NCBI GenBank assembly: GCA_025057155.1
Contig: JANWYD010000014.1
Span: 62,001-126,000 of the forward strand
Direction of reading: 5' to 3'
DNA: 64,000 bases
DNA from: Chloroflexaceae bacterium
Lineage (GTDB): Bacteria > Chloroflexota > Chloroflexia > Chloroflexales > Chloroflexaceae
This document shows positions 5,479 to 64,000 of the stretch, in pieces. The position numbers were made by a program, and so were the translations under genes. The notes beneath the pieces were generated by a model. It worked only from the letters and a program-made list of their open reading frames with translations, did not search any database and was not told the origin of the DNA. Numbering within the stretch: position 1 is the stretch's first letter; every line of letters starts with the position of its first letter.

Positions 5479-6096
5479 ATGACTGCCGAAACACCCGCAG
5501 AGCCGGGCGGAACCCGGATCGACTCCACCCCTGAAGCTGAAGAGCGCCGGAAGGCCGCGCGCGCCAACCGCGCCCGCAAGGGTCTGCTCATCGTCAACAC
5601 CGGCAATGGCAAGGGCAAAACCACCGCCGCCCTTGGCATCCTGTTGCGCGCCTGGGGCCGCGATCTGCGGGTCGGCGGCATCCAGTTCATCAAGCACGAG
5701 AATGCCAACTACGGCGAACTGCGCGCCCTTGAGCGCATGGGCATCACCCTCACGCCCATGGGCGATGGCTTCACCTGGACCAGCCGCGATCTCGATGAGA
5801 CCCAGGCCAGGGCGCTGCACGGCTGGGAAACGGCCAAAGCGAAGATCGTCTCCGGCGACTACGACGTCTTTTTGCTCGATGAGTTCACCTACGTGCTGCA
5901 TTTCGGCTGGCTCGATACCCACGAGGTGGTCGCCTGGATTCGCGAGCACAAGCCCCCGATGCTGCACCTGATCATCACCGGGCGCGACGCTCCACAGGCC
6001 CTGATTGATGCCGCCGATCTGGTGACCGAGATGCGTGAGGTCAAGCACCCCTTCCGCGATCAGGGGCTCAGGGCCCAGCCGGGGATTGAGTTTTAG
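5479..6096 (+). CDS. cobO: Cob(I)yrinic acid a,c-diamide adenosyltransferase
   Basis: A 205-residue protein of the CobO/BtuR/CobA (ACAT) family. It transfers the adenosyl group of ATP to the reduced cobalt of corrinoids. A basic N-terminal segment precedes the P-loop [14 protein letters not shown] (40-53), followed by [12 protein letters not shown], the Walker-B-like strand [13 protein letters not shown], and [12 protein letters not shown] near the end. Length matches the family. It is the first gene after the B12 riboswitch, before the cobalt transporter, so it is under B12 control. Cytoplasmic. Confidence 0.95.
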
Positions 6097-6104
6097 AGCG
6101 CCGA

Positions 6105-6191
6105 AATGATTGATCCGCAGAGGATCCTGAGCCGTATGGCTCGCCGCGCTCGCGCCGCCAGTTGTGGATCCGTCGTTTCGAGAAATGCTAC
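6105..6191. repeat. Family F repeat, copy 1
   Basis: From AATGATTGATCCGCAG to GAGAAATGCTAC. It contains GATCCGCA and TGTGGATC as near-inverted ends of an inner 60-bp unit, and TGAGCCGTATGGCTCG in the middle. It matches 22961-23045 in the opposite orientation over about 85 bp. Confidence 0.7.
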
Positions 6192-6316
6192 GGGGAAATC
6201 ACGGATGGGCATAGCCCCTCCGAAAACTGCGTTCCGGGACGGTGCGCTGGCGCCGCGCTGGGACGCGCAATGTTGCGAGGCCGCAGGCCCCGTCTTTTCA
6301 GGTGAGGACAAATGCT

Positions 6317-7063
6317 ATGAACGACCACTTGAAACGCTGGTTGCCGGTCGCCGCCGGAGCAGCGGTGTTGCTTGTCTTCGAGGCGCGCCCGGCTTATGCG
6401 ATGCACATTATGGAGGGCTTTCTGCCCCCGCTCTGGGCCGCGTTCTGGTTCGTCGTCACGATTCCGTTCTGGGTGATCGGGCTGCGCCAGATCAATCGCC
6501 TGATCGTCGAGAAGCCTGAAACCCGGCTGCTGCTGGGGCTGGCCGGAGCTTTCACCTTCGTGCTCAGCGCTCTGAAGCTCCCCAGCGTCACCGGTTCAAG
6601 CAGCCATCCCACGGGCACGGGCCTGGGAACGATCCTCTTCGGGCCAATGGTGATGAGCGTGCTCGGCACGATTGTCCTCCTCTTCCAGGCCCTGCTGCTG
6701 GCCCACGGCGGCCTGACTACCCTGGGGGCCAATGCCTTCAGCATGGCCGTGGTCGGGCCGCTGGTGGCCTGGGGCGTCTGGAAAGGGCTGAAGGGTCGCG
6801 CGCCAATCTGGCTGGCGGTGTTTCTCGCCGCGGCCCTGGCCGATCTTGCCACCTATGTCGTTACATCGGTGCAACTGGCTCTGGCCTATCCCGATGCGAC
6901 CGGCGGGTTCGTAGCCTCGTTCGCCAAGTTCGGGACGATCTTCGCCGTGACCCAGATCCCCCTGGCGATCAGCGAGGGCATTCTGACTGTGGTGATCTTC
7001 AATGCGTTGCAGAGGAATGCCGAGACTGAACTCCAGACCCTTGGCGTGCTGAAAGGAGCATAG
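6317..7063 (+). CDS. cbiM: Cobalt ECF transporter, substrate-binding membrane subunit
   Basis: About 248 residues from the ATG at 6317, chosen over an upstream in-frame ATG because GGTGAGG precedes it and a signal peptide follows. That peptide (residues 1-28) has a basic start, the core AAGAAVLLV, and ends PAYA. Cleavage after it exposes [10 protein letters not shown], the hallmark N-terminus of CbiM, whose Met-His is known to bind the metal. About six more hydrophobic helices follow, and [12 protein letters not shown] is the conserved loop. With CbiN, CbiQ and CbiO it imports Co2+ for B12. Confidence 0.95.
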
Positions 7064-7065
7064 CC

Positions 7066-7419
7066 ATGCAGGCGAAACCCTTCGGGTGGGGCGTTACGCT
7101 ACTGCTGCTGGGCGTTGTGGTGGTCCTGGCGATTCTTCCCCTGCTGTTCATCCGCGACTCGGAGTTCGGCGGGGCCGATGCAGCGGCTGAAGAGGCCATT
7201 GGTGAAGTGGCCCCCGACTATGAGCCGTGGTTCAAACCGCTGTTCGAGCCGCCCGGCGGCGAGACCGAAAGCCTGCTCTTCGCCGTGCAGGCAGCCATCG
7301 GCGCCGGGCTGATCGGCTACTTCTTCGGGTTGAAGCACGGCCAGCGCCAGGCCCGCGCCTCGACCTTGGCGGAGAGCGCCCCGACCGGGCAGGCCGCCGG
7401 TGAGCGGGTGACCCGGTGA
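7066..7419 (+). CDS. cbiN: Cobalt ECF transporter, CbiN subunit
   Basis: A 117-residue protein beginning 3 bp after cbiM. Two membrane helices (about residues 9-30, VTLLLLGVVVVLAILPLLF, and 71-89, LLFAVQAAIGAGLIGYFFG) flank an extracytoplasmic loop containing DYEPWFKPLFEPPGGETESL, the typical CbiN loop. The C-terminal tail of about 25 residues is longer than usual. CbiN is needed with CbiM for cobalt loading. Its stop is followed at once by an array of 8-bp repeats. Confidence 0.92.
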   Translation: MQAKPFGWGVTLLLLGVVVVLAILPLLFIRDSEFGGADAAAEEAIGEVAPDYEPWFKPLFEPPGGETESLLFAVQAAIGAGLIGYFFGLKHGQRQARASTLAESAPTGQAAGERVTR

Positions 7420-7425
7420 GTGAGG

Positions 7426-7600
7426 GTGTGGAGGTGTGGAGGTGTGGAGGTGTGGAGGTGTGAAAGAATACCTGCAAATTCGAGCAGGATAGCGATCTGG
7501 TCGTGGCGATCCAGTGTGGAGGTGTGGAGGTGTGAAAGAATACCTGCAAATCTACAGCTCCACAGCTCTACAGCTCCACAGCTCCACGGCTCTACAGCTT
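7426..7600. repeat. Octamer tandem arrays (family G) between cbiN and cbiQ
   Basis: Four units of GTGTGGAG at 7426-7460 and two more at 7514-7530. A related 8-bp array of AGCTCCAC/AGCTCTAC lies at 7554-7600. A 30-bp direct duplication (7450-7479 and 7522-7551, ending GAATACCTGCAAAT) joins the first two. The 190-bp gap between cbiN and cbiQ consists almost wholly of this material. Confidence 0.9.
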
Positions 7601-7611
7601 GAACAAAAACG

Positions 7612-8376
7612 ATGCACATCATTGACCGCTACGCCTACACCAACGCCATCCGCGAGCTGGACCCGGCTCAGAAGGGTGGCCTGGCGCTACTGGCCATGCT
7701 GCTCTGTCTGGCGCTGGACCAGCCGGCGGTCGGGTTGCTCACGCTGGGGTGGATGTTCGCGCTGGCGACCCTGTGGGCGCGGGTGCCCGCGCCGGTCTTC
7801 GGGCGCGCGTTGCTTGCCGAGGCGCCGTTCTTGCTCCTCTCGCTGGTCGGTGTAGCCGTCAATGTCAGTCCGGCCCCTCTGCCAATGCCGGCGGTGCGCC
7901 TTGGCCCGCTCTGGCTCGGCAGCAGCGCCGAGTCCCTGGCCCTGGCAATGCGCCTCTTCACCCGCGCCCTGGGCTGCGCGGCGGCGCTGAACTTTCTCAT
8001 TCTCACCACGCCGTTGCTCGATCTGATCGAACTGCTGCGCCGTCTGCGCGCGCCTGAGACGCTGATCGATCTGATCAGCCTGACCTACCGGGCGATCTTT
8101 GTGTTGCTTGAGAGCCTCCAGCGCATGGCCACCGCGCAGGACGCCCGTCTGGGCTACGCCGGTCCCTGGCGCGCGCTGCGCAGCGCCGGTCTGCTGGGGA
8201 GCCAGCTCTTCCTCGATGCCTACCGGCGCAGCCAGCGCCTGCAGATGGCGCTGGAGAGCCGGGGCCTGGCCGGGCCGCTCCGTGTGCTGCCCCTCGACTA
8301 CCGGCGCGACCGGCGCGCGCGGTGGTTCGGCGCGGCCCTTGCCGCCAGCCTGCTGCTGGCGGGAGCGTGGCGATGA
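7612..8376 (+). CDS. cbiQ: Cobalt ECF transporter, transmembrane (T) subunit
   Basis: A 254-residue integral membrane protein with about five helices, for example LALLAMLLCLALDQPAVGLL and FLLLSLVGVAVNV. The cytoplasmic coupling region has EVLRRLRAP-like text (LIELLRRLRAPETLIDLISL) and the family's second motif AQDARLGYAG, which contacts the ATPase. It links CbiM to CbiO. The start codon follows the octamer arrays and has no obvious strong ribosome-binding site. Its stop overlaps the cbiO start as ATGA. Confidence 0.92.
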   Translation: MHIIDRYAYTNAIRELDPAQKGGLALLAMLLCLALDQPAVGLLTLGWMFALATLWARVPAPVFGRALLAEAPFLLLSLVGVAVNVSPAPLPMPAVRLGPLWLGSSAESLALAMRLFTRALGCAAALNFLILTTPLLDLIELLRRLRAPETLIDLISLTYRAIFVLLESLQRMATAQDARLGYAGPWRALRSAGLLGSQLFLDAYRRSQRLQMALESRGLAGPLRVLPLDYRRDRRARWFGAALAASLLLAGAWR

Positions 8377-9113
8377 CCGCGCTGCTTGAACTTGAACAAT
8401 TGCACTACCGCTTTCCTGGCAGCGCCGAACCTGCTCTACGCGGGGCCAGCCTGCGCCTGGAGGCGGGCCAGCGGGTTGCCCTCCTGGGGCGCAATGGCGC
8501 GGGCAAAAGCACATTGATGCTCCATGCCAACGGCCTGTTGCGCCCCTCATCCGGCCAGGTGCGCGTGGCCGGCGAGCCGCTGGTCTACACCCGTCGCGGC
8601 CTGCTCGTCGCTCGCCGCCAGGTGGGGTTGGTGTTCCAGAATCCCGACGACCAGTTGTTCAGTGCGAGTGTCGCTCAGGACATTAGCTTCGGGCCGCTCA
8701 ATCTGGGCCTGGATCTGGCCGAAGCGCGCCGGCGCGTTGCCGATGCCGCCGCGCTGTGCGAGGTGGACGATCTGCTTGACCGGCCCACCCACGCTCTCAG
8801 CGGCGGGCAGAAGCTCCGGGTGGCCCTGGCAGGGGTGCTGGCCATGGCGCCACGGGTTATCCTGGCCGACGAGGTGACGTCTGGTCTAGACCCCTGGATG
8901 CGCCGGCAGGTCTTGGCCATCTTCAACCGTCTGGTCGCCCAGGGGGTGGCGGTGTTGCTGGCGACCCACGATCTGAGCGCCGCGCGTCAGTGGGCCGATC
9001 TGGTAGCGGTGATGGAGGCGGGGCGGGTGATCGCCGTCGCGCCGTCCGCCGAGGTCTTCCGCGACGCGGAGTTGCGCCGCCTCATCGGCGCGGATGCGTG
9101 TATAGGAGTCTGA
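8373..9113 (+). CDS. cbiO: Cobalt ECF transporter, ATP-binding subunit
   Basis: About 246 residues from the ATG at 8373 (ATGA overlap with cbiQ). A standard ABC ATPase: Walker A GRNGAGKST, Q-loop in VGLVFQNPDDQLF, signature LSGGQK, Walker B VILADEVTSGLDPW and switch histidine in LLATHDL. The Walker B has LADE rather than the common LLDE, but the catalytic Glu is present. QNPDDQLFS is characteristic of ECF-type ATPases. It powers cobalt uptake at the inner face of the membrane. Confidence 0.95.
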   Translation: MTALLELEQLHYRFPGSAEPALRGASLRLEAGQRVALLGRNGAGKSTLMLHANGLLRPSSGQVRVAGEPLVYTRRGLLVARRQVGLVFQNPDDQLFSASVAQDISFGPLNLGLDLAEARRRVADAAALCEVDDLLDRPTHALSGGQKLRVALAGVLAMAPRVILADEVTSGLDPWMRRQVLAIFNRLVAQGVAVLLATHDLSAARQWADLVAVMEAGRVIAVAPSAEVFRDAELRRLIGADACIGV

Positions 9114-9118
9114 TGCTA

Positions 9119-9153
9119 TTTTGGATTTTGGATTTTGGATTTTGGATCTGGAT
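9119..9153. repeat. Heptamer tandem array (family H), copy 1
   Basis: Four and a half units of TTTTGGA, beginning 5 bp after the cbiO stop and decaying into TCTGGATAG. The same 7-bp unit occurs at 25444-25472. Confidence 0.85.
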
Positions 9154-9259
9154 AGTTGTTGATGGTATCTCGATTGGACCTGGCACGGCTTCACAGGCGC
9201 GTTGACGTTCAAGGGGCGTCCTCCTCTCGGCCTCCTGCCCAACGGGGGGGAGGCCGGGT

Positions 9260-9432
9260 TCTCAGGTGTAGGGTTTTCCGGCGCATCCTCGCGTCGCATG
9301 CGCCATCTGAAGCATTGAGACGCCCGAATCCCCCCTCTCCCGCGAGCGGGAGAGGGGGGAAGGGGGGTGAGGATCGTAAGCGCATCGGAATGCCGAAAAC
9401 CCTTTCGCGCTCGAAAACCCCTACACCTGAGA
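9260..9432. repeat. Family B repeat, copy 1
   Basis: A 173-bp element with inverted ends TCTCAGGTGTAGGGTTTT and CCCCTACACCTGAGA. Inside are GGCGCATCCTCGCGTC, GCATGCGCC, and a C/G core (CCCCCCTCTCCCGCGAG, then CGGGAGAGGGG). Material at 9210-9258 and 9433-9480 resembles the core of family A. The whole gap 9114-9687 between cbiO and cbiB holds only repeats. Confidence 0.85.
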
Positions 9433-9535
9433 GGCCCAACTCCCCCTTCTCCCGCTCAGGAAGAGAGGGGCAGAGAGTGAGGGTGAAACGGCGCATCCCA
9501 ACGCCATGAATCACATCTGCGCTCATGCGTTCTGT

Positions 9536-9632
9536 CCGCCTAAACCCCGTAGCGGGGAGGCGCCGGACTCCCTTCCCCGGCGGGAGAGGGTTGGGGAGGG
9601 GGGGTTACCGAAAAACTTCGTTTACAGACTAC
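9536..9632. repeat. Family A repeat, copy 2 (one end only)
   Basis: The right half is clear: GGGAGAGGGTTGGGGAGG, GGTTACCGAAAAACTTCG, TTTACAGACTA. The left terminus is degenerate, ending in TAAACCCCGTAGCGGGG. Confidence 0.7.
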
Positions 9633-9687
9633 TCAGAAGGATTGAGGAGAACCCTTCTTCACCGGAACACGCGGAGCGGACTGCGTT

Positions 9688-10632
9688 GTGAACACTCCCC
9701 CGAACATGGCCGAGATCCTCGCGGCGCGCTGCCGGGCGCTGCTGGTCGCCCTGGCCGCTGACGCGCTGCTGGGCGATCCGCCGAATGCCTGGCACCCGGT
9801 GGTGCTGCTCGGAAGCTGGATGCGCCTGGGTGAGCGGCTTGCGCCCCGGAGCGCGCGGGCGCGCCTGGGATGGGGCGCCCTCTGGGTGACGGGCGGTGCG
9901 CTGCTTGCCGGTGGAACCGCCTGGCTGCTGCCGCGTCAGGTTCTGATCCAGGGCTTGCTGGCCTCAACCCTGCTGGCCTACCGGAGCCTCGACCGGGCCG
10001 TGGGCGCGGTACAGGCTGCGCTGGAGACTGGCGACCTGGAGGAGGCGCGGCGCCTGGCGAGCTGGCACCTGGTCAGCCGTCCCACTGCCGAGCTCCGTGC
10101 CGACGAGGTGGCCGCGGCGGCCATCGAGTCGTTGGCCGAGAATCTCTCCGACAGCCTGGTGGCCCCGGCCCTGGCTTATCTGAGCGGCGGTCTGCCGGCG
10201 CTGGCGATGTATCGCCTGGTCAATACCGCCGATGCCATGTGGGGCTACCGGAACGAACGCTACGAGTATCTGGGCAAGGCGGCGGCGCGCCTTGACGACG
10301 CGCTGAACCTGGGGCCAGCCCGCCTGACAGCCGCGCTGATCGCTCTGGCCGCGCAGATGACCATCGGGCGCGGCGCTGCTGCCTGGCGCGTTGCCCGGCG
10401 TGACGCGGGCCGGACGGCCTCGCCCAACGCTGGCTGGCCCATGGCGGCGATGGCCGGCGCGCTGGATACGACGCTGACCAAACGCGATCACTACCGTCTG
10501 GGTGATGGCCCGCGCCTCCCGGACGCTGCGCTGATTGCCGAGGCCCGCCGGATCGGCCGGGCGCTGGTGGTCCTCTTAGCGCTCGCCTTGCTGCCCGGCG
10601 CGCGAGCGTGGGGAAATGCGTCACGTTCTTGA
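9688..10632 (+). CDS. cbiB: Adenosylcobinamide-phosphate synthase
   Basis: A 314-residue membrane protein from a GTG start at 9688; an ATG at 9706 is an alternative without a ribosome-binding site. Family motifs: LLGDPPNAWHPVVLLGSWM at the N-terminus, SLAENLSDSLVAPAL, and MYRLVNTADAMWGYRNERYEYLGKAAARLDD, the conserved CbiB/CobD centre. Several hydrophobic helices fit an inner-membrane enzyme. It attaches (R)-1-amino-2-propanol phosphate to adenosylcobyric acid. No family-specific residue is missing. Confidence 0.93.
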   Translation: MNTPPNMAEILAARCRALLVALAADALLGDPPNAWHPVVLLGSWMRLGERLAPRSARARLGWGALWVTGGALLAGGTAWLLPRQVLIQGLLASTLLAYRSLDRAVGAVQAALETGDLEEARRLASWHLVSRPTAELRADEVAAAAIESLAENLSDSLVAPALAYLSGGLPALAMYRLVNTADAMWGYRNERYEYLGKAAARLDDALNLGPARLTAALIALAAQMTIGRGAAAWRVARRDAGRTASPNAGWPMAAMAGALDTTLTKRDHYRLGDGPRLPDAALIAEARRIGRALVVLLALALLPGARAWGNASRS

Positions 10633-10640
10633 ACGGGAGG

Positions 10641-10672
10641 CAGGGGCGTGGGGAAACCCGGTTTCCCCGCTC
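10641..10672. repeat. Family C palindrome, copy 2
   Basis: GCGTGGGGAAACCC then GGTTTCCCCGC, preceded by CAGGG. It lies just past the cbiB stop. Next, at about 10720-10800, is a C-rich/G-rich stretch (CCCCCTCCC, GGGGGGAGG) resembling a family A core without its ends. Confidence 0.75.
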
Positions 10673-10874
10673 TCCTCAACGTGTTACGCGTCATAGGCGC
10701 ATTACCATTTATGGGGTTCTGCCCCCCTCCCGGCCTCCCCCCGTTGGGGGGAGGAGCCTGATCCTCTCCTCTGGCAGGGGAGGGTCAGGGAAGGGGGCAG
10801 GACCGCAGGAGAAGGTAACCCGGGCATCGCCCTTCAGCAACCATTGTCTTGCTCATCATAAAGTAGAGGCCGCT

Positions 10875-11765
10875 ATGCACTTCCAACCGGACGCGCTCCT
10901 GCTCATCGGTCACGGCAGCCCCGACGCGGCGGGCAATGCCGAGTTTTACCGCTTCGCCGAGGACCTGGGACAGCACCTGGGTGTGGCGATCCAGCCCTGC
11001 TTTCTCGAACTTGCCGAACCGTCCATTGGCGAAGGCTTCGCCCGGTGCGTCGCGGCGGGCGCGCGCCAGATCGCCGCCCTGCCGCTCTTTCTGGGCGCGG
11101 GACGCCACCAGAAGCGCGACGTGCCCGACCTGCTGGCCGAGGCGCAGGCCGCCCACCCCGGCGTGAGGCTGCGCTACGGCGCGCCGCTCGGCTCGCAGTT
11201 GCATCTCATCGACACCCTCGCCGCTCGCGCCGCCGCCGCCCTCGCCCACAGCACCCGCTCCGCGCCTCCCGATGCGACGGCGCTCCTGGTGGTCGGGCGC
11301 GGCAGCAAGGATCCCCAGAGCAACGCCGAACTGCCCCGCCTGGCGCGCCTGCTCGCCGAGATGTACGGGCATCCGCTGGTCGAATACGCTTACCAGGCCG
11401 TCGTCGGGCCGGACGTGGGGCAGGCGGTGACCCGCTGCGCGCGGCTGGGCGCGCAACGGGTGGTGGTGCTGCCGTATCTGCTGTTCACCGGCTTCGTGCG
11501 CGACGACATTGCGCGGCAGGCCCGTGTAGCCCAGGAGCAGCACCCCGAGCTGGAGATCCTGGTCGGCGACCACCTTTTTCCCCATCCGGGCCTGCTTATC
11601 GCCGCTGCAGCCCGTTACCGCGAGATCGTGGTTGGTACGGCGGCCATGACCTGCGATCTCTGCATCTACCGCCGGAGGGCCGTTGACGCCGAGGCCCATG
11701 GTTACCATCATGACGGTCATCACCACCGGCATGCCCACCATAGCGACGAGGAGGTCCACCCGTGA
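10875..11765 (+). CDS. cbiX: Sirohydrochlorin cobaltochelatase with MxCxxC and His-rich tail
   Basis: About 296 residues from the ATG at 10875; the upstream open frame is repeat DNA. Two CbiX halves: LLLIGHGSPDAAGNAEFYRF with FLGAGRHQKRDVPDL, then LLVVGRGSKDPQSNAELPRL with LPYLLFTGFVRDDI. The C-terminus has MTCDLC, the MxCxxC motif that in Bacillus megaterium CbiX holds a 4Fe-4S cluster, followed by a His-rich tail (HHDGHHHRHAHH). It inserts Co2+ into sirohydrochlorin at the start of the anaerobic B12 route. Its stop overlaps the cbiC GTG start (GTGA). Confidence 0.93.
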   Translation: MHFQPDALLLIGHGSPDAAGNAEFYRFAEDLGQHLGVAIQPCFLELAEPSIGEGFARCVAAGARQIAALPLFLGAGRHQKRDVPDLLAEAQAAHPGVRLRYGAPLGSQLHLIDTLAARAAAALAHSTRSAPPDATALLVVGRGSKDPQSNAELPRLARLLAEMYGHPLVEYAYQAVVGPDVGQAVTRCARLGAQRVVVLPYLLFTGFVRDDIARQARVAQEQHPELEILVGDHLFPHPGLLIAAAARYREIVVGTAAMTCDLCIYRRRAVDAEAHGYHHDGHHHRHAHHSDEEVHP

Positions 11766-12409
11766 CGACCCATCCCCACGCCATCGCGGCTGAGTCTTTC
11801 GCCATTATCCGCCGGGGCCTGGCGGAGCGTGGCCACGCCTTCGACCCGCCGCTGGCGGCAGTGATCGAGCGCATTGTTCACTCAACCGCCGATTTCGAGT
11901 TTGCCGACCTGGTCCGGACCAGCCCCGGCGCGGTCGAGGCCGGAGTGGACGCGCTGCGGGCGGGCTGCGCGGTGCTTACCGATGTGCATATGGTGCGCGT
12001 GGGCGTCAACGCCGGGCGCCTGGCAGCGCTGGGCGGATCGCTCCACTGCCTGATTGATGACCCCGAAGTGCAAGCCTTCGCCGCCGCCAGCGGCGTCACC
12101 CGCGGTGCGCAGAGTATGCGCCTGGCCGCGGAACGGGGCTTGCTGGAGGGCGCCATCGTTGCCATCGGGAACGCTCCCACCGCTCTCGAAGAGGTGATCC
12201 GCCTGGTAGCGATGGGGGCGCGCCCGGCGCTCATCGTCGGCGTGCCGGTGGGCTTTGTTGGCGCTGCCGAGAGCAAGGCTGCCCTCGCCGAGGTGACCGC
12301 CGTGCCCTGGCTAATCACCAGCGGTCGCAAGGGCGGCTCGACTGTGGCGGTCGCGGTGATCAACGCCCTGCTGCGTCTGGCGGCAGGCGCGGGGAACGAT
12401 GCATTGTGA
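11762..12409 (+). CDS. cbiC: Cobalt-precorrin-8 methylmutase
   Basis: A 215-residue protein from the GTG at 11762. IVHSTADFEFADLVR carries the expected catalytic His (residue 40). Other conserved segments are DVHMVRVGVN, AIGNAPTALEEVIRL, LIVGVPVGFVGAAESK and the final ITSGRKGGS. It moves the C11 methyl group to C12 to give cobyrinate. It is coupled on both sides (cbiX and cbiD) by overlapping start and stop codons. Cytoplasmic. Confidence 0.95.
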   Translation: MTTHPHAIAAESFAIIRRGLAERGHAFDPPLAAVIERIVHSTADFEFADLVRTSPGAVEAGVDALRAGCAVLTDVHMVRVGVNAGRLAALGGSLHCLIDDPEVQAFAAASGVTRGAQSMRLAAERGLLEGAIVAIGNAPTALEEVIRLVAMGARPALIVGVPVGFVGAAESKAALAEVTAVPWLITSGRKGGSTVAVAVINALLRLAAGAGNDAL

Positions 12410-51681: not shown

Positions 51682-54600
51682 CTACGCCGCACCGCCGGCG
51701 ACGATCCCCTCCAGCCGATCCTCTAGATCTTCGTAGATCGCGCGCAGGCGGTCGAGGGTCTCGTCGTCGGCGTCCCAGAAGCCGCGCCCGCTGGCCTCCA
51801 GCAGCCGGCGCACCATCCCCGCTGCAGCGTGGGGGTTGAGCCGTGCGAGCCGTTCGCGCATCTCGTCGTCGAGGGCGTAGGTTTCAGCGACGCTCTGGTA
51901 GACCCAGCCTTCCACCGCGCCGGTGGTGGCGCTCCAGCCATAGGTGTTGTTCAGGCGCGTCTCGATCTCGCGGGCGCCCTCGTAGCCGTGGGCCAGCATG
52001 GCTTCATACCATTTCGGATTGAGCAGCTTGGCCCGCGTCTCCAGGCGCACCATCTGGCTCAAGGTGCTCACGCGGCTGCCGCCGGTGGTCACCGCGTCCG
52101 ACACCAGCACCTCGGGGCGCTTGCCGCTCAGACGCTCGATGCTCTTGGTGACGCCGCCGAGGCTCTCGTAGTAGGTGTCAATGTCGGAGATGCCCACCTC
52201 GAAGCTGTCAATGTTCTGGAAGGTGAGCTGCACTCCCGCCAGGGCTCGTTCGAGCAGGGGCCGCGAGTCCTTCCATTCGCCGCCTTTGCCCAGCGTGAAG
52301 CTCTTGCGGCTGAGGAAGGCGTCGCTGATCTGGCTGTCGTCCTCCCACGAACCGCTTTCAATCAGGTGGTTGACGTGGCTGCCGTAGCTGCCCGGCGCAT
52401 TGGCGAAGACGCGGGTGGCCGCCTCCTCCAGCGGCACGCCCAGGGCCGCGGCCTGGGCCAGGGCATTGCGGCGCACGAAGTTGGCCTCGGGCGGCTCATC
52501 GGCCATGGCCGCCAGCCGGGCGGCTCGGTCAATCAGGCGCATCTGGCCCCCCAGCAGGTCGCGGAAGATGCCGCTGACCGTCACTACTACGTCAATGCGC
52601 GGGCGGCCCAGTTCCGCGAGGGGGATCAGGGCCACGTCGGTCACGTTGCCCAGCTCGTCGGGCACGGGACGCACGCCCATCAGCGCCAGCACCTGGGCCA
52701 CGCCTTCACAGTCGCTCTTGAGGTTGTCGCTGCCCCAGAGCACCACTGCGACGCTCTCCGGCAGCGCGCCGCCTTCGGCGACTGCGCGGGCCAGCAGTTC
52801 CTCGGTCAGGCGCATGGCTCGCTCCACCGCCGCTGCCGAGGGCGCGCGGGCCGGGTCAAGGCTGTAGACGTTGCGCCCCGTAGGCACGACGTCGGGGTCG
52901 CGCACGATGTCGTTGCTCGGCGAGGGGCGCACAAATCCGCCCTCGAGGGCGTGCAACAGCCCGGCCATCTCCTGATCGCTCGTCAGTCGCGCAAGCAGGT
53001 CGCCAAGGAAATGAGCCAGCGGCGCCAGGTCGCCCGGGGCGTACCCGCCGACCTCCAGCGGCGCTCCGCCCACAAAGCGCCGGATGCTCTCTTTGCAGCG
53101 AGCTTCAACCGCGCGCCAGGATTCCTGGGCCTGCAAATCGCCGGCCATGCGCTCACGCAGCGCCGCGTAATCCAGCCCCATGCTCCGGGCGACGAGGGCC
53201 GGCAGGGTCGTCTCCTCACCGCGCAGCCTGAAGCGCTGGAAGGTCGCGGTGAGGGCCAGCAGATCCACCAGTTCTTCGGTCGAGGGCGGTGCGCCGAAGA
53301 CGTGCAGGCCGGCGGGGATCATGCGCTGCTCGATCTGCAACAACTCGTGGCTGAGATGGGCCAGGTAGTCTGTCTCGGAGTCTGCTCTGACGGGCGCGTC
53401 GGCGCCGAGGCCCAGCTTCCCGGCCAGTTCGCGGATGGTGGCCAGCATCCCCGCATCGGGACGCTGCCGGTAGGCGTCAATAGCGTCCTTCAACTGGCGC
53501 AGGCCCTTGTAGAGGCCGGCCTGTTGCAGCGGCGGCACCAGGTAGCTGATCAGCGTCGCGCCGCTGCGGCGCTTGGCGATGGCCGCTTCGCTTGGGTTGT
53601 TAACGCTGTAGAGGTAGAAGTTGGGCAGATCGCCGATCAGCCGGGCGGGCCAGCAATCGGCGCTCAGGCCCGACTGCTTGCCGGGCATGAACTCCAGCGC
53701 GCCGTGGGTGCCGACGTGGATGACCGCATGGGCCCGGAACTCATGCCGCAACCAGGTGTAGAAGGCGGCGAAGGCGTGGTTTGGCGCGGCGTCGCGGGCC
53801 ATGAGCATGCGCATCGGGTCGCGCTCGTAGCCAAAGGGCGGCTGCACGCCGACGAAAATGTTGCCAAAGCGCCGCCCCAGGATGCGCAGGCGCCGGCCAT
53901 CGCTGAGCAACTCGCCGGGGGCGCGGCCCCAGTGAGGCTCAATCTCAGTGTAGGCCGGGAAGAGGCGCCGGTAATCCTCCACGCTGAGGAACCCTGCCAC
54001 GGCGGCGTCGGTCCCGTGGAGCAACGGCGAGGCGGCGGGGTCCCCGCGCCCCTCGATTACCATCTGGCGCAACTCCTCGGCATCGGCAGGCAGATCCACC
54101 GTGTACCCCCGCTCCTTGAGCGCCCGCAGAATGGCGTAGACGCTACGGAAGACATCGAGGTAGGCGGCCGTGCCCACGTTGCCGAGGTTCGGCGGGAAGC
54201 TAAAGAGCACGAGGGCCAGGCGCTTCTCGTGGTTGGGGGTGCGCCGCAGGGCCACCCGGCGGGCGATCCGGTCGGCGATCAACTCGACCTCGGGTTGGGC
54301 GGGCACAAAGGCCTCGGCGCGGGCGGTGGGGCCGCCAAAGACGATCGGCTCGGCGGCGCCCTCCAGTTCGGGCACGGCGATGCTCAGGGCCGCCTGCACC
54401 GGGGCCAGCCCGCCCCAATCGGCGCGCCAGTCCTCCACCCGCTGGAAGGCCAGGGGCACCGGGGCGAAGTAGCCGACATCGAGGGCCTCGAGGGCGGCCC
54501 GTGCGTCGGCCGGGCGGCTCTCGGCGGGGCCGCCGACCAGGGCGAAGCCCGAGGCGTTGACCAGCAGGTCCACCGTTGCCCGGCGCGGCTCGCTGGCGGG

Positions 54601-55524
54601 GGCCTTCTTGCGCCAGCCGCGGGCCTCGGGCGCGGCGGTGAAGAAGGCCTCAATCGCCGGGCGCATATCCAGGCCCGAAGCGTAGGCCATGCGCGCCTCC
54701 AGCCCCCGCGCCTCCAGCGCCCGCGCCAGGGCGTCGAGATGGGCCGTGTTGCCGCTCAGGGCCACCGTGCGCAGGGCCAGGACGCCCACCGCCCCCTGCC
54801 AGGCCGCCGGGCCGCCCTTTTTGCCCGCCGCGCGGGCGCGGCTTGCGCGCCACTGCTCATAGGCCGCCAGGGTCTCGAAGGGCGCCGGCGCGTCGGGGTG
54901 GATCAGCGCCTGCTCGGGGTAACTGACCGGGTCGAGGATGGGCAATTTGCCCTTGTAGCCGGGCACGTAGGCTTCGATCAGCAGGCAGATCAGCCGGTAG
55001 AGGTTTTCCGGCGAGGCATTGGTCCAGTACTGATGGGCGACGATATAGGTGTAGAGATCGCGGGCCTTGCCGGGGATGAGGCGCAGCACCCGCGAGAGGT
55101 TGCGCAGCACGGCCAGCTGGCGGCGCGCCTCGCCCGCGCCGCCCTGGGGCCGCAGCTTCTTGATCCACTGGCGCAGGGGGCCGCTGGCCTCCTCGCTCTC
55201 GCGGGCCGCCAGCACGAACTTGCCGATGCGCGTCTGGCGAATGAGCGCCGGGTTCGAGGTGATGATCAACACCGGACAGGCGGCCCGTTCGAGCAGGCGC
55301 TCCAATGGGCGCACATAGTCCTCGCCGAAGAGGCGCGCGCCGAAAATGAACGCTGCTCCCTTGACGTCGCGTTCCAGGCGCTGCCAGCCGTCCTCATCGC
55401 GCAGCGAGGCGGCGTCGTAGCACGCCGGGGTCATAGCGACCCCGTGCTCGGCGCGCAGCCGCGCCGCGGCCTGGCGGAGGGCGGCGGCGTGGTTGCCATC
55501 AATGGTGAGAAAGACGATGCGCAT
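51682..55524 (-). CDS. bchH: Magnesium chelatase subunit H
   Basis: A 1280-residue protein, usual length for BchH. It starts RIVFLTIDGNHAAALRQAA. Family segments include YVPGYKGKLPILDPVSYPEQALIHPDAP, LFSFPPNLGNVGTAAYLDVFRSVY, GVQPPFGYERDPMRMLMARDAAPNHAFAAFY, VHVGTHGALEFMPGKQSGLS-like text (IHVGTHGALEFMPGKQSG), NPSEAAIAKRRSGATLISYL and ARLNPHAAAGMVRRLLEASGRG. It binds protoporphyrin IX and, with BchI and BchD (not in this window), inserts Mg2+. CobN is related, but the neighbours acsF and bchM identify BchH. Confidence 0.95.
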   Translation of the reverse strand: MRIVFLTIDGNHAAALRQAAARLRAEHGVAMTPACYDAASLRDEDGWQRLERDVKGAAFIFGARLFGEDYVRPLERLLERAACPVLIITSNPALIRQTRIGKFVLAARESEEASGPLRQWIKKLRPQGGAGEARRQLAVLRNLSRVLRLIPGKARDLYTYIVAHQYWTNASPENLYRLICLLIEAYVPGYKGKLPILDPVSYPEQALIHPDAPAPFETLAAYEQWRASRARAAGKKGGPAAWQGAVGVLALRTVALSGNTAHLDALARALEARGLEARMAYASGLDMRPAIEAFFTAAPEARGWRKKAPASEPRRATVDLLVNASGFALVGGPAESRPADARAALEALDVGYFAPVPLAFQRVEDWRADWGGLAPVQAALSIAVPELEGAAEPIVFGGPTARAEAFVPAQPEVELIADRIARRVALRRTPNHEKRLALVLFSFPPNLGNVGTAAYLDVFRSVYAILRALKERGYTVDLPADAEELRQMVIEGRGDPAASPLLHGTDAAVAGFLSVEDYRRLFPAYTEIEPHWGRAPGELLSDGRRLRILGRRFGNIFVGVQPPFGYERDPMRMLMARDAAPNHAFAAFYTWLRHEFRAHAVIHVGTHGALEFMPGKQSGLSADCWPARLIGDLPNFYLYSVNNPSEAAIAKRRSGATLISYLVPPLQQAGLYKGLRQLKDAIDAYRQRPDAGMLATIRELAGKLGLGADAPVRADSETDYLAHLSHELLQIEQRMIPAGLHVFGAPPSTEELVDLLALTATFQRFRLRGEETTLPALVARSMGLDYAALRERMAGDLQAQESWRAVEARCKESIRRFVGGAPLEVGGYAPGDLAPLAHFLGDLLARLTSDQEMAGLLHALEGGFVRPSPSNDIVRDPDVVPTGRNVYSLDPARAPSAAAVERAMRLTEELLARAVAEGGALPESVAVVLWGSDNLKSDCEGVAQVLALMGVRPVPDELGNVTDVALIPLAELGRPRIDVVVTVSGIFRDLLGGQMRLIDRAARLAAMADEPPEANFVRRNALAQAAALGVPLEEAATRVFANAPGSYGSHVNHLIESGSWEDDSQISDAFLSRKSFTLGKGGEWKDSRPLLERALAGVQLTFQNIDSFEVGISDIDTYYESLGGVTKSIERLSGKRPEVLVSDAVTTGGSRVSTLSQMVRLETRAKLLNPKWYEAMLAHGYEGAREIETRLNNTYGWSATTGAVEGWVYQSVAETYALDDEMRERLARLNPHAAAGMVRRLLEASGRGFWDADDETLDRLRAIYEDLEDRLEGIVAGGAA

Positions 55525-55540
55525 CGGCGTTCCTCATTGC

Positions 55541-56650
55541 TTAATCCGCGGCGGCCACGCGCCGGGCCTGCCAGCCCGGACCGGGGTAGTTCGGGAAGCC
55601 CTCCAGACCACGCCACTTCGTCGTCTCCCTGGTGGGCAGGGGCGGCAGGCGGTAGGTCGCCAGCAGGCGCAGCACAATCCCGGCCCGCAGGCGAGCGGCC
55701 TGGGCCTGGTTCACTGCGCCGCCGCGGTTGGCCAGTTCATTGGCGCGCACATCGTACTCGGCGGCCCTGTCGAGATGGCGGAAGAAGCGCGGATCATCCA
55801 CCGGCAGGGTCTCGGGATAGACCTGGGTGGCGATCCGGTTGCAGAGGCGGATCACCTCCTGGTCATACTGGCGCCAGTCGAGGCCCAGGGCGCGGTAGAA
55901 ATCGGCGCGGCGCGAATCATTCAAGTACATCGTGGCGTACACCGCCAGGAGGAAGAAGCGGATCCAGCGCCGGTTGGCAGGTTTGTTCAGCAGTTCGGGC
56001 TGGCTGCGCATCAGCATGGAGAAGAACTCGCCGTGGCGGTACTCATCGTTGCACCACTGCTCGAACCACTTGAAAATCGGGTGGATGATGCGGTCGGGAT
56101 GCTTCTCCAGGTGTCGGTAGATCGTGATATACCGTGAATAGCCGATCTTTTCGGAGAGATAGACGGTATAGAAGATAAACTTCGGCTGGAAGTAGGTGTA
56201 CTTTTTCCGCTTCTGGAGCACGCTCAGGTCAAGCGCCACGTTCAGGTCGGCCATGGTCTTGTTGAGGAAGCCGGCGTGGCGGCCCTCATCGCGGCTCATG
56301 CACCGGAAGATCGAGCGCAGCGTCGGGTCCTTCAGATGCTTGACCATCTCGGCATAGAGGATGCAGCCGGAGAACTCCGCGGTGCAGGAGCGCTCGAGGA
56401 ACTCGATGAACAACTGCCGCGCGGGCATATCATCGAAGTTGGCCAGGAACTCCTCGGTGCGCTTGAAGTGATTGCGGTTATAATCGCGCTCAAACTCCTC
56501 GCGGATCCACTCAAACTCATCGCGTAGACCATTGCGATCAATATCCAGCGCGTCAATGGCCTTAAAATCAGTGGTGTAAAAGCGCGGGGTAAGGATGGCC
56601 TCCTGCAGGGCATGGCGCGTTGTGACGCTCAGATCCGGCATCTGCTCCAT
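55541..56650 (-). CDS. acsF: Mg-protoporphyrin IX monomethyl ester oxidative cyclase
   Basis: A 369-residue ferritin-like di-iron protein. Conserved features: TPRFYTTDFKAIDALDI near the start, IREEFERDYNRNHFKR, FLERSCTAEFSGCILYAEM, CMSRDEGRHAGFLNKTM (DEGRH at 121-125) and EQWCNDEYRHGEFF, the E-x-x-H pairs that hold the irons. It closes ring E to give divinyl protochlorophyllide using O2. BchE, the anaerobic alternative, is not in the window. A strong AAGGAGA precedes the ATG, and bchH follows after 16 bp. Confidence 0.96.
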   Translation of the reverse strand: MEQMPDLSVTTRHALQEAILTPRFYTTDFKAIDALDIDRNGLRDEFEWIREEFERDYNRNHFKRTEEFLANFDDMPARQLFIEFLERSCTAEFSGCILYAEMVKHLKDPTLRSIFRCMSRDEGRHAGFLNKTMADLNVALDLSVLQKRKKYTYFQPKFIFYTVYLSEKIGYSRYITIYRHLEKHPDRIIHPIFKWFEQWCNDEYRHGEFFSMLMRSQPELLNKPANRRWIRFFLLAVYATMYLNDSRRADFYRALGLDWRQYDQEVIRLCNRIATQVYPETLPVDDPRFFRHLDRAAEYDVRANELANRGGAVNQAQAARLRAGIVLRLLATYRLPPLPTRETTKWRGLEGFPNYPGPGWQARRVAAAD

Positions 56651-56727
56651 AGCTTCTCCTTATCGATCCCAGGATCGCCAGGTCTCGCCAGGACGCCATA
56701 TGCGGCAATCCGCAATCCGAAATGGCG

Positions 56728-57060
56728 TCAGGGGTGTTCCACCAGTTCGTTCACCTCGACCAGGCTGCTCTTCTTTATCAGGTTGCGCCGCAACCAGCTC
56801 GCCTTGTAGAGCTTGATGGGACTGGTGTAGGTAATCTCGCCATGGGTCTGGCCATTGATGCGCGGCAGCGAGACGATTTCCAGGGTGTCGCCCGGCTGGA
56901 TCTCCATCCCTGGCGGCAGATCGACATGCAGGTGGAAATGCTCGTGCTCGCTCTGCAAGTGCACCGTGCCTTCGCCCTCCTGCAACGTCTCGCGCTTGTA
57001 CCAGCGCCAGAGCGCATACCCTGCCGCCGCCGCCAGCGCCACTCCGAAAAGCTTGCGCAT
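56728..57060 (-). CDS. Small membrane-anchored protein between bchM and acsF
   Basis: About 110 residues from the ATG at 57060, chosen for its AAAGGGGG ribosome-binding site and its basic start MRKLFG. Residues 4-18 (LFGVALAAAAGYALWRWY) are a short membrane anchor followed by KRETL. The soluble part begins with a His-rich strand (HLQSEHEHFHLHVDLPPGM) and continues as probable beta strands (DTLEIVSLPRINGQTHGEIT, YTSPIKLYKASWLRRNL). No family is recognised. Its place between the methyltransferase gene and the cyclase gene suggests an accessory role at these membrane-bound steps, which is inference only. Confidence 0.65.
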   Translation of the reverse strand: MRKLFGVALAAAAGYALWRWYKRETLQEGEGTVHLQSEHEHFHLHVDLPPGMEIQPGDTLEIVSLPRINGQTHGEITYTSPIKLYKASWLRRNLIKKSSLVEVNELVEHP

Positions 57061-57258
57061 AGGCCCCCTTTCTTTGTGCAACGTAGTACAGATTATGGAC
57101 TGCAATCGCCCAAAAATATTGAACGCTGTCTTGATGGAATGAAGCTGCATGACCAATCGTAGAACAAACAAATGAAAAGAGTTTTTCTTGAGAGGGCGCA
57201 GCCCTCCCCAACCCTTCCGCGCGTGACAGGCATTCGCCGCAGCGCGAACATGACCTGT

Positions 57259-57957
57259 TCAGGTGCGCATGGCCTGGACGAGCGTGACGTGATAGAAGCC
57301 GCTGCTGATGCGCCGGGCGCGGCGGATGGACATGCCGCCAGCGGCGAGGGTGGCGCGCACCAGGTCGTCGCGGATCATTTGAATATCGGTACGGCGCTGG
57401 CTGTGGGGAAAAAAGGCGCCCACGCGATGCATCGCCGCGAGCAACGGGCTGTACGGGGCGTAGGTAAAGAGCAGCGTATCCGAGCAGCGATCAATCAGGT
57501 GGCGCAGCATCTGCTCAAACGGCCCGGGCGGGTAATGGATAAGCACATCAAAGCACGCCACTACGGCGAAGCGCCCCTGCAGCTCCTCCAGATCGGCGAC
57601 CAGCACGTCAATGCGCCCCGCCAGCCCGGCGGCTTCAGCCGCGGCCCGCGTGGCCGCAGCCATCTGCGGCGCCAGGTCCACCGCGGTTACTTGCATGCCC
57701 CGGCGGGCCAGGGCCAGACTGAACAGACCGGTGCCGCACCCGGCGTCGAGCGCCGCGCCGTCGCGGCCCCGCCCCTCGGCATCCAGCCATGTCTCCGCGA
57801 GGGCCAGCATCTGCGTGTGCCCGTCGCGGATCGAACGGCGAATGGGCGAGAGCCGCGCCTCGCCATAGATGGCCGACCAGCGCTCAAAGCCTACCCCATC
57901 GAAATACTGGCGTAAACGCGCTTTGTGCCGGGTGGTGTCCACGTCCGATCTCAGCAT
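57259..57957 (-). CDS. bchM: Mg-protoporphyrin IX O-methyltransferase
   Basis: A 232-residue SAM-dependent methyltransferase. The BchM-specific start DTTRHKARLRQYFDGVGFERWSAIYGE is followed by the SAM-binding loop LDAGCGTGLFSLALA (70-84). VTAVDLAPQM and CFDVLIHYPPGPFEQMLRHL complete the core, and RISSGFYHVTLVQAMRT the typical end. It methylates the C13 propionate of Mg-protoporphyrin IX, giving the substrate of AcsF. It is the first gene of the 29-kb minus-strand cluster. Confidence 0.96.
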   Translation of the reverse strand: MLRSDVDTTRHKARLRQYFDGVGFERWSAIYGEARLSPIRRSIRDGHTQMLALAETWLDAEGRGRDGAALDAGCGTGLFSLALARRGMQVTAVDLAPQMAAATRAAAEAAGLAGRIDVLVADLEELQGRFAVVACFDVLIHYPPGPFEQMLRHLIDRCSDTLLFTYAPYSPLLAAMHRVGAFFPHSQRRTDIQMIRDDLVRATLAAGGMSIRRARRISSGFYHVTLVQAMRT

Positions 57958-61330: not shown

Positions 61331-63394
61331 ATGAAGCGCATCGTGAGCATCAGTCTGGGTTCCTCGACCCGCGATTACCGCTTTACGACGTCCATCCTCG
61401 GGCGTGCGATCGAGGTCGAGCGCATCGGCGTTAACGGCGAGGCCGCGCGCGCCGCCGAGATGATCCGCGCCTTCGATGGGCGCGTGGACGCGATTGGCCT
61501 GGGCGGCCTTACGCCGGTCTTCCGGGTGGGCGCGGCGCGCTATCCCCACCAGGAGGCTGTGCATATCGCCGCCCAGGCTCACCGGACGCCAGTAGTGGAC
61601 GGCGGGGTGATCAAGGCCACTCTGGAACGCTGGGTCGTCGCCCAGGCTGCCCGGCAAGTTCCGGGCATCTTTCGTTACAAGAAGATACTCTTCACCAGCG
61701 GCATCGAACGCTACCAACTGGCCGCTGCGATCGCCCAGTATGGCGGCGAGTTGCGCTTCGCCGATCCGATTGTGCACATCGGGCTGCCTTCTCTGCCCGT
61801 GCCGCGCTCCCTGGAACAGCTCGAACTCTACGCCGCCACCACTCTGCCCATCACGGCGCTGTTGCCCTACCGCCTGCTGCATCCCGTTGCCCTGGGCCAG
61901 GAGGGCTACGATCCCCGCGCTGAGGGCCTCTTCCGCTGGGCCGAAGTGATCGCTGGCGATTTTGCCTTTATTCGCCGCTTCGCCCCCCAGGACCTCCGCG
62001 GCAAGACCATCGTGACCGACGACCCCTCGCCCGCCGAGATCGAGGACCTGCGCCAGCGCGGCGTGGTGACGCTGGTCACGATGACGCCGCCGTTCACCGA
62101 TCTTGACGGCGCGCCTGCGCCGCGGCCCTTCGTTTCCGCCGATGTGCTGGAGGCGATGGTTACGGCCATTCAGGAAACCGGCGCGCAGCCCGGCGAGGCC
62201 GAGGTGCTGGATTTCATCTCCGCCACGGGTTGGGGCGCGCATGTGCAGGAGCTGAATCCGCGACCAAAGCCGAAGTTTGCCTTCGTGATCCACCCCCTGC
62301 GCACCAGTCTGATCGCCAACGATCCCCGCTTCCGCTGGACGCGCTATCTGCCGCCGCGCCTGGTTGAGCGGGTCGCTGCCTACATTCCGCCTCTCTACCT
62401 CTCGCGCATTCGCGGCATTCGCTCGGCGGCCACAGGCGAGGAGGTCGAGGGCATTCTGCTGACCCTCGGCGCCACGCCGCGGGAGATGATGCGCCGCCCA
62501 CCGAGTTTCACCTACCGGCGGCTCATCCGCGCCGCGCGGATGGCCGAGAAGATGGGCGCCCAGATCATGGGGCTCGGCGCGTTCACTTCGGTGGTCGGCG
62601 ACGCGGGGATCACTGTGGCCCAGAAGAGCGATATCGGCATCACTTCAGGCAACTCGCTCACTGTGGCGGCCACCCTGGAAGCAGCCAAACAGGCTGTGCT
62701 GCTAATGAAAGGCGGGCGACCCGAAAAGGTCCGCGCTATGGTCATCGGCGCGACCGGCTCGATCGGCTCGGTGTGCGCGCGCCTGCTGGCCCAGGCCGTG
62801 CGCGACGTGGTGCTGATCGCCCCCCGCCCCGAGCGCCTCCTGGACCTCAAGCAGCAGATCGAGCGCGAGACGCCCGGCGCCCGCGTTATCGCCGCGACCC
62901 ATCCCGACGCCTATCTTGGCGATGCTGATCTGGTCATTACGACGACCAGTTCGCTCACTGGGCGGGTGATCAATATTGACAAGCTGAAGCCCGGCGCCGT
63001 GGTGTGCGACGTGGCCCGTCCCCCCGATGTGAAGGAAGAGGATGCCGCCCGCCGCCCCGATGTGCTGGTAGTGGAGAGCGGCGAAATCGTGCTGCCCGGC
63101 GAGCCTGATTTCGGCTTCGATATTGATATGCCTCCTGGCACAGCCTACGCCTGTCTCTCCGAGACGGCGTTGCTGGCCATGGAGGGCAAGTTCGAGGATT
63201 ACACCCTCGGACGCAACATCGAGATGGAGCGGGTCAAAGAGATGTATCGCCTCTGGCACAAGCACGGCCTGCAACTGGCCCGCCTGCGCTCCTTCGGCGT
63301 GTACGTGACCGACGAAATGATCGCCGAGAAGCGTCGCCTGACCGAAGAACGCCGCCGGCAGCTCGGGCTGCCCGCGGAGCATGTCGAGATGTGA
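61331..63394 (+). CDS. Large protein with C-terminal acyl-ACP-reductase-like domain
   Basis: About 687 residues from the ATG at 61331 (GAGGAG upstream). The C-terminal part (about 400-660) resembles cyanobacterial long-chain acyl-ACP reductase (AAR): MGLGAFTSVVG, ITSGNSLTVAATLEAAKQAV, the NADPH loop VIGATGSIGSVCARLL, and YACLSETALLAMEG followed by LGRNIEMERV. Cys608 aligns with the AAR catalytic cysteine (Cys294 in Synechococcus, ACFAEA). Known AAR is about 340 residues, so the first 390 are extra. That region (SISLGSSTRDYRFTT, VDAIGLGGLTPVFRVG, TPVVDGGVIKATLERW) is not recognised. The likely role is NADPH-dependent reduction of a thioester to an aldehyde; a semialdehyde or quinate/shikimate-type dehydrogenase is the alternative. 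Confidence 0.7.
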   Translation: MKRIVSISLGSSTRDYRFTTSILGRAIEVERIGVNGEAARAAEMIRAFDGRVDAIGLGGLTPVFRVGAARYPHQEAVHIAAQAHRTPVVDGGVIKATLERWVVAQAARQVPGIFRYKKILFTSGIERYQLAAAIAQYGGELRFADPIVHIGLPSLPVPRSLEQLELYAATTLPITALLPYRLLHPVALGQEGYDPRAEGLFRWAEVIAGDFAFIRRFAPQDLRGKTIVTDDPSPAEIEDLRQRGVVTLVTMTPPFTDLDGAPAPRPFVSADVLEAMVTAIQETGAQPGEAEVLDFISATGWGAHVQELNPRPKPKFAFVIHPLRTSLIANDPRFRWTRYLPPRLVERVAAYIPPLYLSRIRGIRSAATGEEVEGILLTLGATPREMMRRPPSFTYRRLIRAARMAEKMGAQIMGLGAFTSVVGDAGITVAQKSDIGITSGNSLTVAATLEAAKQAVLLMKGGRPEKVRAMVIGATGSIGSVCARLLAQAVRDVVLIAPRPERLLDLKQQIERETPGARVIAATHPDAYLGDADLVITTTSSLTGRVINIDKLKPGAVVCDVARPPDVKEEDAARRPDVLVVESGEIVLPGEPDFGFDIDMPPGTAYACLSETALLAMEGKFEDYTLGRNIEMERVKEMYRLWHKHGLQLARLRSFGVYVTDEMIAEKRRLTEERRRQLGLPAEHVEM

Positions 63395-63710: not shown

Positions 63711-64000
63711 ATGACGGCTCTCGAACATCTCACCAGCTACCCCGTGCAGCGGCGCTATCGCGCGCCGCTGCTGCTAATCCACGGCGCCTGGCACGGGGCG
63801 TGGTGCTGGGAGGCGGCGCGGGAGGACCTGGCGGCGCGCGGCTTCGAGGTGCATGCCATCAGCGTCCGGGGGCACGGCGGCAGTCCGGCGCCGCCAGGAT
63901 ATCGGCGCTCGACGATCCTCGACTATGCGCGCGAGGTGCGCGGCGCAATTGCTGCGGTGGGCAGGCAGCCCATTGTGGTCGGGCACAGCGCCGGGGGCTA
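63711..64000 (+). CDS. Alpha/beta hydrolase, partial (runs off the right edge)
   Basis: The first 96 codons of a gene starting at the ATG at 63711. LLLIHGAWHGAWCWEAAR carries the HG oxyanion motif. VHAISVRGHGGSPAPPGY follows, and VVGHSAGG holds the nucleophile serine. The substrate cannot be told from this part. The start has no strong ribosome-binding site, and the right end of family A copy 10 lies only 10 bp upstream. Confidence 0.85.
   Translation, partial: MTALEHLTSYPVQRRYRAPLLLIHGAWHGAWCWEAAREDLAARGFEVHAISVRGHGGSPAPPGYRRSTILDYAREVRGAIAAVGRQPIVVGHSAGG

Follow-up and report, generated by a model that had tools for sequence, protein, structure and literature searches.

The 687-residue protein encoded at positions 61331..63394 (+) of the window, the 64,000-nucleotide stretch of Chloroflexaceae DNA analysed here, is probably an NADPH-dependent, aldehyde-forming fatty-acyl thioester reductase that carries a non-catalytic partner domain and feeds fatty-alcohol and wax-ester synthesis. 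This assignment is drawn from sequence, predicted structure and gene context. The coding sequence, supported by its open reading frame, orthologs and family matches, comprises an N-terminal domain (residues 1-312, 61331..62266, +) and an AAR/PigE-type thioester reductase domain (residues 313-687, 62267..63391, +). An order-wide genome search recovered orthologs of the whole protein in 51 of 61 relatives within Chloroflexales; these begin at the same ATG with MKRIVSISLGS or a near variant, and their full-length identities range from 97% down to about 62%. Chloroflexales contain two paralogs. The window copy is paralog 1, which is near-universal in the order and appears to be present in three families, Chloroflexaceae, Roseiflexaceae and Herpetosiphonaceae; paralog 2 is about 50-54% identical to it.

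NCBIfam models matched residues ~361-676, PigE with an E-value of 8e-55 (NF053554 positions 51-362; 186 bits against a cut-off of 850) and cyanobacterial long-chain acyl-ACP reductase (AAR) with 3e-18 (TIGR04058; 66.2 bits, missing the equivalog cut-off of 449.7). Solved PigE and AAR structures were likewise the top sequence matches, with 4ppm at E 3e-55 for the profile of alignment A3. A predicted full-length model (mean pLDDT 87) was matched in a fold search to AAR 6jzq with a TM-score of 0.82 of the target, followed by the terminal domain 'TAD' of the carmabin-pathway NRPS (TM 0.64-0.71), on which a literature search returned nothing. The Pfam scan detected no aminotransferase domain in the window protein, and no SDR/FAR-type or HMGR-type domain scored over cut-off in the Pfam and NCBIfam scans. 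An initial annotation, made from the sequence alone, had described the C-terminal part as AAR-like and proposed a profile search against AAR models; that search bore the description out, with PigE as the stronger match. We conclude that the reductase domain (residues ~313-687) is truly related to AAR, and more closely still to the thioester-reductase half of PigE.

All four motifs listed in that annotation were confirmed. These are TSGN at residues 438-441 (62642..62653, +), with T127, G129 and N130 invariant in alignment A3; the NADPH-binding loop GATGSIG at residues 473-479 (62747..62767, +), whose AAR counterpart is GATGDIG; GRN at residues 627-629; and the catalytic cysteine, Cys608 (codon 63152..63154, +). 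Cys608, located in the model on the basis of sequence alignment and fold matching, corresponds to AAR Cys294, the residue that is Cys in 6jzq and Ser in 6jzz (C294S mutant), and its position is occupied by Cys in 53 of 53 aligned family sequences. Among residues of AAR that contact the NADPH phosphate, the equivalent of R193 is R or K in 50 of these 53 sequences and that of R314, Arg628 of the GRN motif, is R in 40; the equivalent of AAR R189 is Pro498 in the window protein. The AAR reaction proceeds through an acyl-Cys294 intermediate that is reduced by NADPH (PMC7089970), and the N-terminus of PigE has an equivalent Cys and reduces a thioester (PMC8341465). By homology, the window protein would accept a fatty-acyl thioester, acyl-ACP and/or acyl-CoA, take the acyl group onto Cys608 and reduce it there with NADPH as in cyanobacterial AAR. 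The fatty aldehyde released would not be decarbonylated but reduced to a fatty alcohol, and the gene context of paralog 2 and of the proteobacterial and acidobacterial relatives suggests that this alcohol is then used for wax esters.

The initial annotation had also raised the idea of a distinct reductase group tied to wax or lipid metabolism, and the neighbouring genes agree with it. Distant fused relatives (37-39% identity) are found in Burkholderiales, Gammaproteobacteria and Acidobacteriota. An iron alcohol dehydrogenase gene lies directly upstream of the fused form on the same strand at 29 proteobacterial loci, and a gene for the wax-ester synthase WS/DGAT lies directly downstream on the same strand at seven proteobacterial or acidobacterial loci, with gaps of 197-300 bp between the matched parts. 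WS/DGAT was present in 36 of 36 genomes with the proteobacterial fused form versus 35 of 250 in the order background (Burkholderiales), an enrichment (Fisher p 5e-27) inflated by close relatives among the genomes. Fused-form genomes were compared with the background because a single random draw of Burkholderiales contained too few cases (5/250) to set reductase against WS. One acidobacterial locus, L072, holds two divergent fused reductases at 5865-7853 (-) and 10001-12001 (+), with WS/DGAT and iron alcohol dehydrogenase genes near.

Within Chloroflexales the link runs through paralog 2. Eight Chloroflexaceae genomes, that of the host among them, have a WS/DGAT gene directly downstream of it in the same orientation (in the host on contig C3, paralog 2 at 199242-201227, then the wax-ester synthase at 201461-202219). 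The genome-wide search for partner enzymes suggested earlier yielded this synthase directly after the host's paralog 2 and no oxygenase. WS/DGAT was detected in 18 of 23 Chloroflexales genomes with paralog 2 versus 0 of 38 without it; three near-complete genomes of a single genus have paralog 2 with WS/DGAT not detected. In a quick tree with long branches, all fused forms grouped together (support 99), and paralog 2 and the wax-linked proteobacterial and acidobacterial genes formed one clade (support 91) that leaves paralog 1 outside. The gene context ties the reductase family to wax esters.

The window copy itself has no adjoining WS/DGAT, and paralog 1 is also found in Chloroflexus-like and Herpetosiphon-like genomes that lack WS/DGAT, so the two paralogs may lead to different final products. 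Directly downstream in the window is an alpha/beta-hydrolase gene (Abhydrolase_6; 63714..64000, +, continuing beyond the window end and equal to L110 9715-10506), a neighbour kept in Chloroflexaceae, where it directly follows paralog 1 at 18 of 23 loci from five genera of the host family. It is a candidate acyltransferase or esterase. In two genomes, probably of Chloroflexus, the two genes overlap by 4 bp, paralog 1 is the sole copy and no WS/DGAT was found. The Herpetosiphonaceae ortholog (L084) adjoins an iron alcohol dehydrogenase gene; at this locus (10001-12023, KatS3mg057) the reductase open reading frame is split into several frames, probably by assembly frameshifts.

Roseiflexus and Chloroflexus produce wax esters (PMC4400912), and in Chloroflexus stearol is the main esterifying alcohol of BChl c (PMC9066304). 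Because Chloroflexus makes both while apparently carrying paralog 1 as the sole copy and no WS/DGAT, the most likely role of the window copy is a general supply of fatty aldehyde and alcohol. In chlorosome-bearing members the alcohol could also become the stearyl tail of BChl c. A stricter division of labour, in which paralog 2 alone serves wax esters while the aldehyde of the window copy ends up outside waxes, either as the stearyl alcohol in BChl c or in an ether or alkylamine lipid, appears to us possible but the lesser prospect. It would fit the near-universal occurrence of paralog 1, including in genomes without WS/DGAT, its branching outside the wax-linked clade, the stearol of Chloroflexus BChl c and the distance of only 3.4 kb between the window gene and the bchM/acsF/bchH genes. 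Against it, Roseiflexus and Herpetosiphon appear to carry paralog 1 too, although Roseiflexus lacks BChl c and Herpetosiphon is not phototrophic, and the sole-copy paralog 1 of the wax-ester-producing Chloroflexus plausibly serves waxes.

The N-terminal domain is the less familiar half of the protein. Split-gene relatives and the predicted model place the domain boundary near residue 312-315. At five loci, a separate ORF of ~300-340 aa equivalent to residues 1-310 directly precedes an ORF matching residues 312-676; such split-gene pairs were found in Bacillota and Armatimonadota. The 390 residues originally allotted to the N-terminal region therefore ran about 75 too far, but its description as an unfamiliar domain stands: no Pfam or NCBIfam family was found in the window protein and none credible in its homologs, and its profile found nothing credible among PDB sequences. 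Structure prediction, which the initial annotation had recommended, gave a confident alpha/beta fold (AlphaFold, pLDDT 91). In a Foldseek search with this domain alone, AAR ranked third (E 1.7e-5) with a TM-score of up to 0.47, the best among the matches listed. R31, G33, P87, G91, D145 and G209 are invariant in the domain alignment, and no Ser or Cys occurs in its invariant or nearly invariant columns. It contains no dinucleotide-binding loop, carrier-protein fold or phosphopantetheine motif. The idea that the domain holds the thioester as a carrier protein is accordingly rejected on its alpha/beta fold and the lack of a conserved Ser or Cys.

The same Foldseek result raises the prospect that the N-terminal half is itself an AAR-like domain that has degenerated and lost its catalytic activity, which would make the protein an internal pseudo-duplication with one active and one inactive half. 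Profile-profile alignment of the two halves with hhalign, for which a trimmed alignment was used since the untrimmed one aligned only common linker residues, was collinear over 209-234 columns, whereas 400 shuffle runs reached at most 116. However, its scores of 18-25 fell inside the shuffle range (maximum 29) with hhalign probabilities of just 0.3-2.7%, the TM-score between the N-terminal domain and AAR is below 0.5, and sugar-binding proteins and other Rossmann-like folds gave E-values similar to that of AAR. We regard such an origin as conceivable, though on balance doubtful; it concerns the N-terminal half alone and is compatible with the thioester-reductase assignment of the whole protein.

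A reductase was found somewhere in the genome in 16 of 19 genomes with the N-terminal domain, most of which have the domain gene without an adjacent or fused reductase and two of which (those of L089 and L091) had entered the set via the reductase, versus 5 of 250 in the Burkholderiales sample; three of the genomes yielded no reductase. Conversely, reductases without the N-terminal domain exist in five genomes, so the domain is not indispensable. One of these, G018, has at L118 (8751-10046) a reductase without the N-terminal half, an apparent loss, and this locus looks syntenic with L127, which holds a full-length copy; a GlpX-type gene lies beside both. At L092 and L093 (about 8245-10984), the N-terminal-domain gene stands in a row with apparent coaX (pantothenate kinase III) and dusB genes, and L082 has a similar row. 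We infer that the N-terminal domain is an old partner subunit, not a thioester carrier, and that in one clade it was joined with the reductase into a single protein. It is probably non-catalytic and most likely shapes the reductase, receives the substrate or passes the product on; in origin it may possibly be a dead AAR copy.

A broader version of the partner-subunit reading, offered tentatively and with less than even expectation, is that a widespread fatty-acyl reductase works as two components, with the domain as its very old partner (and perhaps an inactive AAR paralog), and that its fatty aldehydes go into several classes of lipid: the wax esters of Chloroflexota, Burkholderiales and Acidobacteriota, the stearyl-BChl c of Chloroflexus and the alkylamine phosphoglycolipids of Deinococcota. 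If true, bacteria would have one more way of making fatty alcohols, based on an AAR-type enzyme. Genomes of Thermaceae, Deinococcales and Trueperaceae encode the N-terminal domain on its own and also carry PlsY-AAR fusions, in which a PlsY-like membrane domain of the glycerol-3-phosphate acyltransferase kind (PF02660) has attached to its C-terminal side a reductase of the same superfamily, from a more distant clade (L141 847-2532, L143 370-2289, L144 778-2589, L147 787-2556). These three groups contain an alkylamine phosphoglycolipid (PMC3398001). Its synthesis could sensibly start from a fatty aldehyde, and the PlsY-AAR fusion could be the aldehyde source for these lipids.

The closest characterised relatives by profile are PigE and TamH of prodigiosin and tambjamine synthesis (4ppm), whose thioester-reductase domain carries the same Cys and converts an acyl thioester to an aldehyde (PMC8341465). 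In PigE this domain is joined to a class III aminotransferase, in the window protein to the N-terminal domain instead. Cyanobacterial AAR (6jzq, 6jzy and 6jzz) shares with the window protein the overall fold, the NADPH loop, the catalytic Cys and the GRN Arg (Arg314 in AAR), but identity is only ~23-24%, the score is far below the family cut-off (66 vs 450 bits), the window protein has the additional N-terminal domain, and its family is found in a wax-ester rather than an alkane context. The four wax-ester acyl reductases listed in PMC11948995 (FarA, AcrB, Acr1 and FcrA), none of them AAR-like, carry out the same step that is proposed here, from fatty acyl to aldehyde or alcohol before WS/DGAT; they are of SDR/FAR or HMG-CoA-reductase type, a different family from the window protein.

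Since the reaction type is already known, the window protein is a variation on established chemistry, and what is truly new in it is the partner domain, a widespread unnamed family that these comparisons expose. In the literature covered, no account of a fusion between the N-terminal domain and the reductase was found; one may exist beyond it. AAR-type chemistry would extend well past cyanobacteria and prodiginine clusters, with a possible added enzyme source for oleochemicals. In Roseiflexus/Chloroflexus mats, wax esters serve for lipid storage and as a diel pool of carbon (PMC4400912), and the window gene and paralog 2 are concrete candidates for the acyl-reductase step of their synthesis, a gap in the wax-ester pathway of several bacterial groups. 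The iron alcohol dehydrogenase beside the proteobacterial relatives is in turn a candidate for the fatty aldehyde reductase called unknown in PMC11948995.

Two other functions can be largely set aside. Homology to AAR might suggest alkane synthesis in the cyanobacterial style, but aldehyde-deformylating oxygenase (ADO, PF11266) was missing from all 61 order-level genomes, including the whole host genome, while the Synechococcus elongatus control was positive; an ADO partner for the window reductase is rejected, its reported absence next to the gene holds genome-wide, and an alkane role is very improbable. Still less credible is a shikimate/quinate or glutamyl-tRNA-reductase type of dehydrogenase, since Pfam Shikimate_DH (PF01488) is only narrowly over cut-off (26.5 vs 24.3 bits) and glutamyl-tRNA reductase models match weakly in the NCBIfam scan, whereas the AAR and PigE matches are far stronger and span the whole reductase domain, quinate/shikimate dehydrogenases reach TM 0.48-0.49 (other families <=0.49 among the matches listed) against 0.82 for AAR, and both the sequence and the fold search put the catalytic Cys at the AAR position; both dehydrogenase readings are rejected.

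Upstream of the reductase gene, bchH, acsF and bchM lie close together on the opposite strand (51682-57957, -), and their presence in the same window indicates that the host is a phototrophic member of the Chloroflexota. A 1414-aa antisense ORF over bchH and acsF (51829-56073, +) looks like a high-GC artefact.
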